Assembly: GCF_900107455.1 (NCBI RefSeq)
Contig: NZ_FNQB01000001.1
Coordinates: forward strand, 1,178,001 to 1,242,000
Reading direction: 5' to 3'
From: Asanoa ishikariensis
GTDB lineage: Bacteria; Actinomycetota; Actinomycetes; Mycobacteriales; Micromonosporaceae
Length of the DNA: 64,000 bases
Part shown: piece by piece, positions 38,793 through 41,509 of the stretch
How positions within the stretch are numbered: the first letter of the stretch is position 1
Layout: each line of letters begins with the position of its first letter
Program-made: the position numbers and the translations under genes
Notes under the pieces: generated by a model
What the model saw: only the letters and a program-made list of their open reading frames with translations
Databases searched by the model: none
What the model was told of the DNA's origin: nothing

Positions 38793-39632
38793 ATGACGAC
38801 GGTGACCGTCCTCTTGCGCCCCTACCGCGACACCGAAGACGCACGACCATTCGGCGTAGTAGCAGAAGAGCATGGCGAGATAGTCGGCCGCGGCTGGATG
38901 GACTCGTGGGACGAGGCCGACGGCACGCGCCTGCACCTCCTCTCCGGCTGCGTCGACCCGCGCTGGCGCAGGCGGGGAGTGGGCACCGCGATCCTGCGCT
39001 GGCTGGAGGAACGCGTCGACCGGACGCCCGGATCCACCTTCGGCGTCAACGTGGCTCCGCACGAAACAGGCAAGCTCGCGATGATCACCGCGCACGGCTA
39101 CCGACTCGCGTTCACCGTCGTGGAGCTGGCCCGCGACCTCAACAACCTTGAGCCTCACCCGCTCCCGCCCGGGCTCGTCCTGCGGCCGGTCGAACCCGCG
39201 CATCACCCCCTGATTTACGCGGCAATCGACGAGTGCTTCGCCGACTCCGGACACGGCCACCAAACACAGACGTACGACGAATACCTTCGCGACGTGCAGG
39301 ACGTCGAGCTCTGGACCGTGGCCTGGGCCGGCGACTCGGTCGCGGCCGTCGTGGTCAACGAGCGCCAGCCCGACGGCACGGCGAGCACGCCGTGGGTGGC
39401 GGTTCGGCCGCCTTGGCGACGTCGTGGGGTCGGGCTCGCGTTGATGAGCCAGACGCTGCGTACCCTCGCCGATTCGGGTGTGACGCGGGCTCGGCTGAGG
39501 ACCGTCCAGGAGAACCCGCACAACAGCGTGGGGCTCTACGAGCGCGCCGGCTACGCGATCGTCGACCGGCAACCCCGCTACCGCAAGGCTCTTGACTCAC
39601 CCACCTACCCTGAAGACATGCCGCACCCATAG
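38793..39632 (+). CDS. Tandem GNAT acetyltransferase (two GNAT domains)
   Basis: 279 residues. Domain 1 has VDPRWRRRGVGTAILRWLEE with the acetyl-CoA loop; domain 2 has VRPPWRRRGVGLALMSQ and the C-terminal NSVGLYERAGY. Both pyrophosphate loops are intact, as in MshD-like tandem GNATs; the acceptor is unknown. ATG 38793, no SD. The stop TAG (39630) is unusual in context: the frame is the same as that of the following PTH2-like gene, so reading through this one codon would give a GNAT-PTH2 fusion of about 380 residues. The last 12 residues overlap the promoter and first codons of that gene, so they are probably tail, not domain. Confidence 0.85.
   Translation: MTTVTVLLRPYRDTEDARPFGVVAEEHGEIVGRGWMDSWDEADGTRLHLLSGCVDPRWRRRGVGTAILRWLEERVDRTPGSTFGVNVAPHETGKLAMITAHGYRLAFTVVELARDLNNLEPHPLPPGLVLRPVEPAHHPLIYAAIDECFADSGHGHQTQTYDEYLRDVQDVELWTVAWAGDSVAAVVVNERQPDGTASTPWVAVRPPWRRRGVGLALMSQTLRTLADSGVTRARLRTVQENPHNSVGLYERAGYAIVDRQPRYRKALDSPTYPEDMPHP
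39606..39611 (+). promoter_or_regulatory. -10 box of leaderless PTH2-like gene
   Basis: TACCCT, 6 nt before ATG 39618, inside the 3' end of the GNAT gene; no SD precedes the ATG. Confidence 0.45.
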
Positions 39633-39932
39633 GGCCGCCGCCTCTACCTCGTCACCCGAGCCGACCTCCCGCCCGGTGACCAGGCCGCCCAACTGGCACA
39701 CGCCGCGATCGAGTTCACCGCGCGTTGTGGCCGCGCCTCCGACATCGTCGTGCTGCTCGCCGCACCGGACGAGCTTGCCCTGACTCGGCTGTATGCCGAC
39801 GCGGTCGACGCCGTCGCCGTTCATGAGCCCGACCTCGACGGGGCTCTCACCGCTGTCGCGTTCGAGTCGGCCTCGCGCCGGCTCGTGGCGCACCTTCCTC
39901 TGGCATTCGCGGAGGGAGGTGAAAAACCATGA
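39618..39932 (+). CDS. PTH2-type peptidyl-tRNA hydrolase gene with in-frame amber codon (TAG) at codon 5
   Basis: ATG CCG CAC CCA TAG, then 100 open codons to a TGA at 39930. The sequence after TAG is a PTH2-like fold from its first strand: RRLYLVTRADLPPGDQAAQL, then AHAAIEF and IVVLLAAPDE, ending LAFAEGGEKP. PTH2 enzymes free tRNA from peptidyl-tRNA. After the TAG there is no ATG, GTG or TTG before GTG 39747, which is already in the third strand, so a complete protein needs the TAG to be read as sense. The start looks leaderless (TACCCT -10). Codon use and overlap with the next gene (ATGA) are intact, so decay is not evident. Either a very recent nonsense mutation or amber decoding; a tRNA with CUA anticodon lies 290 bp downstream. 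Confidence 0.72.
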
Positions 39933-40183
39933 CCACGGACCTGCGGGCCCAACTGGTCGAGTTGGCAGCGGAGCGCGACGCGCTCAAGGCGCAACTCGCC
40001 GGTGACCTCCCGAAGGCGACCCGCTGGCTGCAGCAGAAGGTCTGGCGGCAGGCCGCCGCCCTTGACCGGCTGAACCAGCGTGTCGTCAACCAGCGGTTCG
40101 TCCTGCGCATGCTCGACGAACTCGGTCGGTCGCTGACCGCGGACGAACTCCGTGCAACCTCAGCCGACGCTGCGGCGTCCTAA
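39929..40183 (+). CDS. Small coiled-coil protein coupled to the PTH2-like gene
   Basis: 84 residues, Ala/Leu/Arg/Glu-rich, with heptad-like helices (RAQLVELAAERDALKAQL, then LQQKVWRQAAALDRLNQRV) and no known catalytic motif. A strong GGAGGTG precedes ATG 39929, which overlaps the PTH2-like stop (ATGA), so it is translated in the same operon but can initiate independently of the amber codon. Function unknown; coupling suggests a partner or regulator of the PTH2-like protein or of translation. Confidence 0.72.
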   Translation: MTTDLRAQLVELAAERDALKAQLAGDLPKATRWLQQKVWRQAAALDRLNQRVVNQRFVLRMLDELGRSLTADELRATSADAAAS

Positions 40184-40189
40184 CCCATG

Positions 40190-40213
40190 GGTGGGCGGTG
40201 TAGGCCGCCCACC
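40190..40213 (+). terminator. Hairpin between coiled-coil gene and tRNA
   Basis: GGTGGGCGG (40190-40198), loop TGTAGG, CCGCCCACC (40205-40213). 9-bp perfect stem ending 5 nt before the tRNA. It may terminate transcription or mark a processing site. Confidence 0.5.
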
Positions 40214-40218
40214 GCCAA

Positions 40219-40289
40219 GCCCCAGAGGTCCGACGGACGGGCGGCCGCCTCTAAAGCGGTGATAGCGGGTTCGACTCCTGCCTGGGGCG
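40219..40289 (+). tRNA. Candidate amber-decoding tRNA, anticodon CUA
   Basis: Acceptor stem GCCCCAG/CTGGGGC is 7 bp perfect. The anticodon stem is GCCGC/GCGGT (40244-40248, 40256-40260) with one G-U pair, and its 7-base loop CTCTAAA has C32, U33, anticodon C34-U35-A36, A37. The T arm is GCGGG-TTCGACT-CCTGC (40265-40281), with one G-U pair. The variable loop is GATA; discriminator G; CCA not encoded. The D arm GTCC-GACGGAC-GGGC keeps GG in its loop, so the elbow pairs G18-U55 and G19-C56 can form. Core positions are odd: A8 instead of U8, G14, C21 and A48. The anticodon is complementary to UAG. Amino acid unknown. No promoter of its own is visible, so it is probably cut from the upstream operon's transcript. 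Confidence 0.8.
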
Positions 40290-40319
40290 CACGGAGCCTT
40301 CGATAAGGACGACGCACCT

Positions 40320-40640
40320 CTGCGGGAGCCGAGCTACCTCATCCTCACCTCGTTGGCGGCCGAGCCGAGGCACGGCTACGCCGTGATCGAAGACGTCAAG
40401 CAGATCTCGGGCGGCCGGGTCGTGATCGGCGTCGGCACGCTCTACACCGCGATCGACCGGCTGCACGCCGACGGGCTCATCGAGGTCGACCGGGAAGAGG
40501 TCGTCGACTCCCGGTTGCGCCGCTACTACCGCCTGACCGGCGACGGTGCGCGGCGGCTGGCGGCCGAGACCAAGCGGTTGACCCGGCACGCCGCCGCGGC
40601 GACCGCCCGGCTGAGGGTGCTGGGAGTTGAGCCGGCATGA
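40320..40640 (+). CDS. PadR-family transcriptional regulator without a canonical start codon
   Basis: The winged helix begins at once (REPSYLILTSLAAEPRHGYA, then GTLYTAIDRLHADGLIEVD and RRYYRLTGDGARRLAAE), about 106 residues in all. The frame has TGA and TAG stops at 40260 and 40263 inside the tRNA and no ATG, GTG or TTG before TTG 40353, which would remove half the DNA-binding domain. CTG 40320, at the position where family members start (x-LREP), is the provisional start; AAGGA at 40305-40309 could serve as a distant SD. The original 5' end may have been replaced when the tRNA segment came to lie here. Its stop overlaps the ATG of the next gene, the usual PadR / membrane-protein pair. Confidence 0.7.
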   Translation: MREPSYLILTSLAAEPRHGYAVIEDVKQISGGRVVIGVGTLYTAIDRLHADGLIEVDREEVVDSRLRRYYRLTGDGARRLAAETKRLTRHAAAATARLRVLGVEPA

Positions 40641-41509
40641 CGGAGCTCGAGGGGCACTACCGCCGCCTGCTCGCGCTCTTCCCGCGCCGGCACCGGCAGG
40701 CGTACGAGGCCGAGATGCTGGACGCCCTGCTGGCCGGAGCCCGCCCGGGGCAACGCCGACCGCGCGCCGGCGAGGTCCTCGACCTGGCCCGGGCGGCGCT
40801 TACCGCCCACGTCGCGGGCCGGTCGACCTGGTCGGCGGCCGCCGGTGTCGTCGGTGCGATCGGGATGGCCGCCAGCGCGCTGCGTGGGGCCGGCGTCCTA
40901 CACACGACCCTCGTGCAGCCCGACTGGACCTTCGCCGTGACCGTGCTGGGATGGCTGCTGGCGGCCGCCGGCTCGGTCGCGGGCTGGCGTGTGCTCGCGG
41001 TCACCGCCGCCACGGTCGGACTGGTCATGCAGGCCACGTTCAGCTTCCTGGCGTTCGGTGTCGATCACCTGCCGATAGCGGTCGTCGCCGCGCTGCTGAC
41101 CGCTGGCTGCCTGGCCGTGTGGGCGATCACCGATGGCCCGGTCTTCCGCGGGCGTGCTCTGTGGCCGACCCTCGGAGCCGGCGTGGTCGGCGCGGTGACC
41201 GGTTGGATCCCGCGCGCGCCGTTCTCCAACACGATGCCCTGGCTGCCCGTCGAAGGGAACTGGCAGTACGGGGCCGGTGCGCTGGGCATCGCGGCGGTGA
41301 CGGTCAGCACCGTCCTGCTCACCGTTCTGGCGCTGCCCGGTCCGGTTCGCGGCCGTGTCGTCGTGCTGGCGCTGCCGGTGGTCGGGCTGGCCCTGGTGCA
41401 CAACGCGGGCCTCTCGTACCCCTCGACCTTCGTGGTGCTTTGTCTCCTGGTCGCGCCGTTCGCCGGGTTGGGGCTCGTGCGAATGAGGTCCCGCGCGACG
41501 GCGAACTGA
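40637..41509 (+). CDS. Membrane protein paired with PadR regulator
   Basis: 290 residues. A cytosolic N-terminus (HYRRLLALFPRRHRQAYEAE, the motif seen in many PadR-linked membrane proteins) precedes about eight hydrophobic segments. ATG 40637 overlaps the PadR stop by 4 bp. Function unknown. PadR-linked genes of this type are thought to be controlled by the adjacent repressor. The TGA stop is part of the terminator stem. Confidence 0.75.
   Translation: MTELEGHYRRLLALFPRRHRQAYEAEMLDALLAGARPGQRRPRAGEVLDLARAALTAHVAGRSTWSAAAGVVGAIGMAASALRGAGVLHTTLVQPDWTFAVTVLGWLLAAAGSVAGWRVLAVTAATVGLVMQATFSFLAFGVDHLPIAVVAALLTAGCLAVWAITDGPVFRGRALWPTLGAGVVGAVTGWIPRAPFSNTMPWLPVEGNWQYGAGALGIAAVTVSTVLLTVLALPGPVRGRVVVLALPVVGLALVHNAGLSYPSTFVVLCLLVAPFAGLGLVRMRSRATAN

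Follow-up and report, generated by a model that had tools for sequence, protein, structure and literature searches.

A PTH2-like gene with an early in-frame UAG and a linked CUA tRNA: a candidate nonsense gate in actinobacteria and phages

Why would a gene open with four sense codons and a stop codon, and why would a tRNA able to read that stop lie just downstream? The question is raised by a locus in a 64,000-nucleotide window (G000:C2:1178001-1242000) from the genome (9.09 Mb) of an actinobacterium related to Asanoa, in which a gene resembling peptidyl-tRNA hydrolase 2 (PTH2) has an in-frame TAG as its fifth codon and is followed by a gene for a helical protein and by a tRNA with a CUA anticodon. 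Comparison across bacterial and phage genomes suggests that the TAG is a nonsense gate specific to this gene, which the linked suppressor tRNA opens, a reading to which we assign a probability of roughly 0.85. The initial annotation of the locus, which described an amber-decoding module whose tRNA would allow PTH2 synthesis, thereby gains strong comparative support. On this reading the PTH2 gene seems to behave as a switch, shut unless the suppressor tRNA beside it is functional. The parts of the module and the open reading frame (ORF) upstream of it are:

39606-39611, + strand: -10-like hexamer TACCCT, 6 nt ahead of the start codon
39618-39629, + strand: leader ATG CCG CAC CCA (MPHP)
39630-39632, + strand: in-frame TAG (the gate), codon 5 of the PTH2-like gene and also the stop codon of the upstream GNAT ORF
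39633-39932, + strand: PTH2-like coding sequence 3' of the gate, 99 codons and a stop (39930-39932)
39929-40183, + strand: helical (coiled-coil-like) gene, 84 amino acids, with a 4 bp overlap (ATGA) with the PTH2-like gene
40190-40213, + strand: GC-rich hairpin between the stop of the helical gene and the tRNA
40219-40289, + strand: tRNA with a CUA anticodon (40251-40253) in the loop CTCTAAA
38793-39632: GNAT ORF, in the same frame as the PTH2-like gene and terminating at the gate TAG

The TAG after ATG CCG CAC CCA with its open PTH2-like frame, the coiled-coil gene with its 4-bp overlap and the CUA tRNA are all present as first annotated. The tRNA is called by two programs: ARAGORN places it at 40219-40290 with anticodon CTA, labelled Pyl owing to the CUA, and a search of the region with a tRNA covariance model, which the annotation had suggested, gives an Rfam RF00005 match at 40219-40289 of 40.4 bits, above the gathering score of 29.

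Is the TAG peculiar to one genome? A profile from four homologues was searched against 84,980 species genomes, yielding 14 loci, and PTH2 was also sought in 354 genomes from the family of the window, which its named members show to be Micromonosporaceae; the merged searches gave 16 distinct modules, the window included. Codon 5, preceded by a start and three codons, is TAG in all 16, which exceeds chance. The leaders seen are MPHR, MPHP, MPHF, MPFR, MPFE, MPNR, MTHR and VPHR, with proline as codon 2 in 15 of the 16 (CCG 9, CCA 6), and in 14 modules ATG, GTG and TTG are all absent between the TAG and the conserved core. A CUA tRNA was called by ARAGORN in 15 modules, and in the remaining one, from Nocardia tenerifensis, the tRNA is cut by the contig end, as seen by eye. 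The co-occurrence of TAG and tRNA, which the annotation had proposed to examine in homologues, thus holds across the set. No sense codon replacing the TAG was seen among the bacterial modules examined; where the annotation had asked which residue stands there in the absence of the tRNA, a degraded tRNA goes with a degraded module instead. A sequencing error or a pseudogene, which one window by itself could not exclude, has a negligible probability, and is refuted for the family by the recurrence of the TAG in 16 modules across genomes and in many phage records, cultured phages included.

Some PTH2 match is found in 20 of the 354 family genomes: nine have the module, ten have canonical PTH2 only, and one (G007) has a relic that is frameshifted and still opens MPHR-TAG. 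The canonical PTH2s (L037-L046, L049, L050) belong to the same protein family (PF01981) as the gated protein, and differ from it in having an ordinary start codon 3' of any upstream stop, in keeping the MGKGK loop, and in showing no tRNA within the 2.9-3.3 kb fetched. In a sample of the phylum, two of 396 genomes gave a match, the window genome and G442; the latter match was rejected as its translation resembles another protein.

The tRNA can also be followed independently of the protein. In the 15 tRNA sequences the loop CTCTAAA is invariant, paired changes are seen by eye in the acceptor and anticodon stems, and the discriminator base is G or A. The 354 family genomes were scanned with a covariance model of the module tRNA, using stricter filters and scoring 13 candidates per genome. 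Every genome matches this model somewhere, ordinary tRNAs being found as well, and ten genomes are set apart at 84.8-99 bits, namely the nine PTH2-module genomes and G001. G001 keeps an MPHY-TAG leader, the helical gene and the tRNA, while most of PTH2 is gone, such that the frame of the TAG leader continues into the helical gene (L100, 1088-1195). The tRNA and the helical gene can, it would seem, persist without PTH2. The next-best match, in G004 at 73.6 bits, is a relic with the anticodon loop TGCTGAA (read by eye), and no module protein genes were seen alongside it. The window genome itself holds a decayed second copy of the module (L048, G000:C3:1209312-1209995), in which the PTH2 frame is broken, a stop lies inside the helical gene and the tRNA relic has the loop CTCCAAT (read by eye). 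Because both relics have lost the CUA anticodon, the anticodon is retained, on this comparison, where the module is retained. Among the 78 tRNAs called in the fetched stretches of the window genome, Leu(UAA) comes nearest to the typed consensus, at 76%, which is no more than a hint of the amino acid carried. A tRNA array in the same genome (L052, G000:C2:1892645-1896405) gave 22 RF00005 matches; some of its tRNAs are of the Leu type and have short variable arms.

Does the association hold outside bacteria? Phage relatives were collected from IMG/VR scans and from cultured and other phage records; two viral scans gave 169 and 120 relatives, of which the best 80 were retained in each case, loci with identical cores were merged, and L145 and L274, which have no recognised core, were left out of the counts, leaving 109 distinct loci. 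One alignment, A5, was nowhere conserved enough to serve for scanning. Of the 109 loci, 52 are gated, with no start after the stop, 53 have a start codon that intervenes before the core (7 semi-gated and 46 ungated), and 4 are other (L168, L183, L207, L256). The gated stops are TAG in 50 loci, TAA in one and TGA in one, and are located at codon 2 (3 loci), 3 (24), 4 (15) or 5 (10). A CUA tRNA lies in the fetched stretch in 40 of the 50 TAG-gated and all 7 semi-gated loci, compared with 8 of the 46 ungated ones. The pairing of TAG with a CUA tRNA that was first noted in the window is therefore seen in phages too (47/57 versus 8/46; Fisher p=3.6e-11, relatedness ignored); this table leaves out the four other loci and the gated L163 (TAA) and L214 (TGA). 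In L163 the TAA at codon 3 is accompanied by a UUA tRNA that overlaps the 3' end of PTH2. The L163 PTH2 is 68% identical to that of L175, which has TAG and a CUA tRNA, and the tRNA bodies of the two are unlike. Putative lock-and-key pairs of stop and tRNA are seen for amber (CUA) and, at least once, for ochre (UUA). The TGA-gated L214 was not counted as support, since no UCA tRNA was among the 37 read.

Cultured phages show versions of the arrangement in which a restart codon is possible. The window protein matches mycobacteriophages of the Myrna group. Three phages, Myrna, ScoobyDoobyDoo and Phabba, have GTG-TAG-GTG at the start of the gene, a promoter of TTGACA-like and TANNNT-like elements upstream, and a CUA tRNA downstream, which is annotated as Ser in the Myrna record and as Arg in the Phabba record. 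In Drazdys, of the Bxz1 group, the gene reads ATG-TAG-GTG and a 'tRNA-suppressor (cta)' is annotated downstream; 190 records match the 91-base start region of Drazdys at 90% or more, with the TAG read in Drazdys only. Records can place the starts of these genes 3' of the UAG, as for Myrna gp84, Drazdys 157 and XacN1 ORF364.

The last of these bears on suppressor tRNAs that have had no known client. In the available text of the XacN1 report, the authors describe two CUA suppressor tRNAs for which they were unable to name a target gene (PMC5852040). The listed XacN1 PTH, ORF295, is of the canonical kind with an SRGK-type loop (by eye). XacN1 has another PTH2, which belongs to the clade studied here (E=1.6e-17) and forms the C-terminal part of ORF364, a hypothetical protein annotated from 243756. 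An in-frame ATG AAG TAG begins at 243735, 21 bases 5' of that annotated start and preceded by a Shine-Dalgarno (SD)-like AGAGGA, so that the extended gene covers AP018399 243735-244595. ORF364 is on this basis a candidate target of the XacN1 suppressor tRNAs; an in-frame ATG 3' of the TAG is a possible restart, and a gate is not proven there. The N-terminal domain of ORF364 looks HD-like by eye. For Atu_ph07, the available text of the genome report describes peptidyl-tRNA hydrolases, given as putative, and a suppressor tRNA of the UCA type (PMC6102473).

Could the UAG simply end a short regulatory ORF, with PTH2 starting anew after it, at AUU, GUU or GUA or at GUG, UUG or AUG, and the tRNA a bystander? 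The codon 3' of the TAG is indeed ATT, GTT, GTA or ATA in 37 of the 50 phage cases, and an ordinary start follows the TAG in the 7 semi-gated phage loci and in 2 of the 16 bacterial modules. Any stop codon would serve such a minigene, yet TAG, TAA and TGA number 50, 1 and 1 in the phages and TAG is found in 16 of 16 bacterial modules, and the sole TAA is accompanied by a UUA tRNA. The bacterial modules also show GGC, GAC, GGA, CTG and CTT 3' of the TAG. We regard restart as quite improbable. A purine 3' of UAG favours suppression; in that position 14 bacterial modules have G and 2 have C, and of the 50 phage cases 25 have A, 23 have G, 2 have C and none has T. As a control, ORFs opening with a start codon and TAG without an early restart were counted in the 50 gated stretches; of the 28 found, 20 are the PTH2s, and the remainder (8 TAG, versus 8 TGA and 7 TAA start-stop ORFs) reveals no general excess of such TAG ORFs. 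In AT-rich phages ATG-AAA-TAG does open other ORFs, at 4317 in L134 and at 327 and just past the PTH2 stop in L137, and in such phages gating may extend to genes other than PTH2.

Several observations weigh against suppression of the UAG by the linked tRNA, or limit how far it can be taken. A possible start lies 3' of the TAG in two bacterial modules (GTG in L021 and TTG in L022), where PTH2 could begin, and in seven phage loci, including the four cultured mycobacteriophages read. Eight of the 46 ungated phage loci also carry a CUA tRNA. The Fisher test is blind to relatedness, and a tree-based pair test has one supported pair only; in the tree, of 129 rows, the bacterial modules fall into a single supported group and 11 changes of the gate are required, with too few resolved forks for a paired test (L183 and L207 were scored as gated and L168 was unscored). 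Ten of the 50 TAG-gated phage loci have no CUA tRNA in the fetched stretch. For one of these, L217, a CUA tRNA lies just outside it. No CUA tRNA was seen in LR745206 or G777 (54 tRNAs read of 63 RF00005 matches in each), G770 (21 of 32) or G780 (3 of 4); two gated loci in fragments of 14.6 and 26.2 kb have other tRNAs only, and three in records of 65-76 kb have no tRNA match at threshold. For one of these three, L230, a second record, 127 kb long, has one tRNA match below the cut-off. Gated loci without a CUA tRNA are exceptions left unexplained. In addition, PTH2 may not be the sole client of the tRNA, because the tRNA of G001 survives without an intact PTH2, and the hydrolase activity of the gated PTH2s is uncertain, because part of the canonical GKGK loop is missing from them.

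The identity of the protein itself rests on family-level comparison. The window protein alone matches PF01981 weakly (E=0.027, 15.1 bits, below the 23-bit cut-off), all 16 homologues match PF01981 at E<=1 (the lowest E being 1.7e-7), and the family profile matches solved PTH2 structures (1q7s, E=1.9e-7). The structure model of the PTH2, with a predicted local distance difference test (pLDDT) score of 73.6, has PTH2s as its top Foldseek matches, all weak (E>=0.011). The MGKGK loop of PTH2 has a catalytic role; the module PTH2s are without it and have a PPGxQ-like sequence, two residues shorter in the alignment with 1q7s. The residue at the TAG falls in the variable N-terminal linker of PTH2. 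The window PTH2 has no match among plasmid records. Fifteen Prevotella phage records match a gated PTH2 query.

How would the gate be read by ribosomes? TANNNT ends 6-7 nt 5' of the start codon in 16 of 16 modules, against a background of 35 in 4806 ATG or GTG codons in the same loci, modules counted in. Because the -10-like hexamer sits just before the ATG, the module mRNA is likely leaderless, with its AUG at or near the 5' end (AUG-NNN-NNN-NNN-UAG) and translation starting upstream of the UAG. Of the 50 phage cases, 20 have an SD-like motif 5' of the start, where the background is 11%, and 10 have a leaderless-like hexamer, one or the other being present in 30. Where release factor 1 (RF1) is dominant, ribosomes would yield the tetrapeptide only and then stop; where charged tRNA-CUA is present, some ribosomes would pass the UAG and make the PTH2-like protein, and the helical protein would then be made via the short overlap. 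The competition between tRNA-CUA and RF1 at the UAG would in this way set the output of PTH2. Because the linker position is variable and the phage tRNA bodies are diverse, selection appears to keep the decoding of the stop and not a given amino acid.

What purpose might this serve? Tentatively, and with slightly less than even odds, we suggest that PTH2 is a safety valve, made only during suppression, that clears the peptidyl-tRNAs which suppression produces or discharges the suppressor tRNA; the amount of PTH2 would be proportional to nonsense suppression, and the gate would act as a feedback safety device. The tetrapeptide could alternatively be the signal for a feedback sensor, as the initial annotation proposed, if its termination or drop-off generated the peptidyl-tRNA that is the substrate of PTH2. 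The bacterial leaders fit such a sensor in being mostly M-P-[HFN]-R with synonymous variation. Phage leaders, however, are 1-4 codons long and varied in sequence, including a bare AUG-UAG, and therefore no specific peptidyl-tRNA is conserved, which makes the sensor unlikely.

A further variant keeps the same gate and adds positive feedback, such that translation past the UAG to the end of the helical gene would keep transcription going through the hairpin, and the tRNA would boost itself in a bistable manner. The tRNA does lie 3' of both genes. The hairpin in the window spacer has -22.9 kcal/mol (z -3.7), and in 15 of 15 spacers the predicted structure starts 1-12 nt past the helical stop, 13 of them folding at z<=-2.5 against mononucleotide shuffles (exceptions L016, -1.8, and L017, -0.6). 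Against this variant, no U-tract was seen in these spacers, the position of the first pair is variable, and in phage L128 the tRNA sits upstream of PTH2. We consider positive feedback doubtful.

The state of UAG in the rest of the genome bears on two other possibilities. Were UAG sense everywhere, PTH2 would be one amber gene among many, and in the huge phage LR756500 there are indeed no TAG stops in 56 unfiltered ORFs of at least 100 amino acids over 49.9 kb. The ORF coverage of LR756500 barely rises, however, with TAG as sense (0.74 to 0.76), and the window genome keeps RF1 (478 bits) and uses TAG to terminate 12 of 45 gene-like window ORFs (at least 150 amino acids, filtered by GC content at third codon positions), so that genome-wide recoding is very improbable. 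The ARAGORN label, which derives from the CUA, would point to the insertion of a dedicated 21st amino acid such as pyrrolysine; the search of the window genome for PylS found nothing above the cut-off (best 23.6 versus 178 bits), the cloverleaf is ordinary, and the codon-5 residue lies in a variable linker, and we give this reading hardly any credence. Because RF1 is present and TAG stops are in use, a fully active suppressor would be costly, and the tRNA is probably weak or conditional.

The helical protein is aligned across the 16 modules (alignment A3), and its AlphaFold2 model consists of a helix at residues 2-64 and a second at 71-83 (mean pLDDT 79.9). Family searches with it gave no convincing family. 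The helical-gene profile matches 3 of 164 scanned phage loci, in each beside PTH2 (L128, 1.5e-18; L133, 1e-16; L129, 1.1e-10), and of 24 pattern matches to the helical protein in viral contigs none was confirmed by tblastn. The PADLOC models of known anti-phage defence gave no match for the four bacterial proteins submitted and a single weak BrxC match for the Myrna protein (E=0.014).

The initial annotation overlooked that the GNAT ORF is in frame with PTH2 and shares its TAG, such that read-through in the window strain could also yield a GNAT-PTH2 fusion. In A. siamensis (L010), the module is preceded by sequence other than the window GNAT (by eye); the TAG is therefore, in this comparison, not explained by the GNAT. 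The sequence 5' of the L010 module resembles, by eye, a membrane protein of the window at 40637-41509. The same locus as in Asanoa siamensis (L014) is found in G005, of the same genus as the window genome.

Among the ungated phage loci, 4 of 46 have a UUA tRNA and 1 a UCA tRNA, and ten (L142, L143, L144, L149, L156, L166, L178, L232, L235, L252) are near tRNA-like genes with odd anticodon loops of 6 or 8 bases, read as tc or ttca, which are perhaps opal suppressors. Because UUA, UCA and odd-loop tRNAs all occur at ungated loci, the entire PTH2 clade may be tied to nonsense suppression.

How does the gate compare with known uses of stop codons? Release factor 2 is autoregulated through a frameshift at an early in-frame stop in prfB, and the two systems are alike in that an early in-frame stop ties the synthesis of a translation factor to inefficient termination; prfB differs in using a frameshift and no dedicated tRNA. 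In pyrrolysine and selenocysteine insertion, a dedicated tRNA reads a stop codon, as proposed here, but the present system has no PylS above cut-off, a residue in a variable linker and phage tRNAs of diverse body. Amber suppression itself is already known. In phages that recode stop codons, including crAss-like phages with genetic code 15, the available text of two reports (PMC10879173, PMC9523058) describes a phage-encoded suppressor tRNA that reads UAG as sense, a feature that would be shared. UAG is there reassigned in many genes, whereas here a single gene family has one UAG, located at codon 2-5, the window genome retains RF1 and UAG stops, and the unit is also found in bacterial chromosomes. 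A natural gene locked by a stop and unlocked by an adjacent tRNA was not found in searches of the open-licence literature of PubMed Central, and may be in print elsewhere. The orphan suppressors of XacN1 differ from these cases in that a clade PTH2 with an upstream in-frame ATG AAG TAG is available as their candidate target.

Taken across phages and actinobacteria, the comparisons make it fairly probable that self-encoded nonsense gates are a general device, in which an early stop and a linked, matching suppressor tRNA have moved between phages and actinobacteria, would monitor the strength of suppression and release factors, and would explain orphan phage suppressor tRNAs. This supplies a candidate target for phage suppressor tRNAs previously without one, and the cost and control of nonsense suppression become testable in easily grown mycobacteriophage-host pairs.

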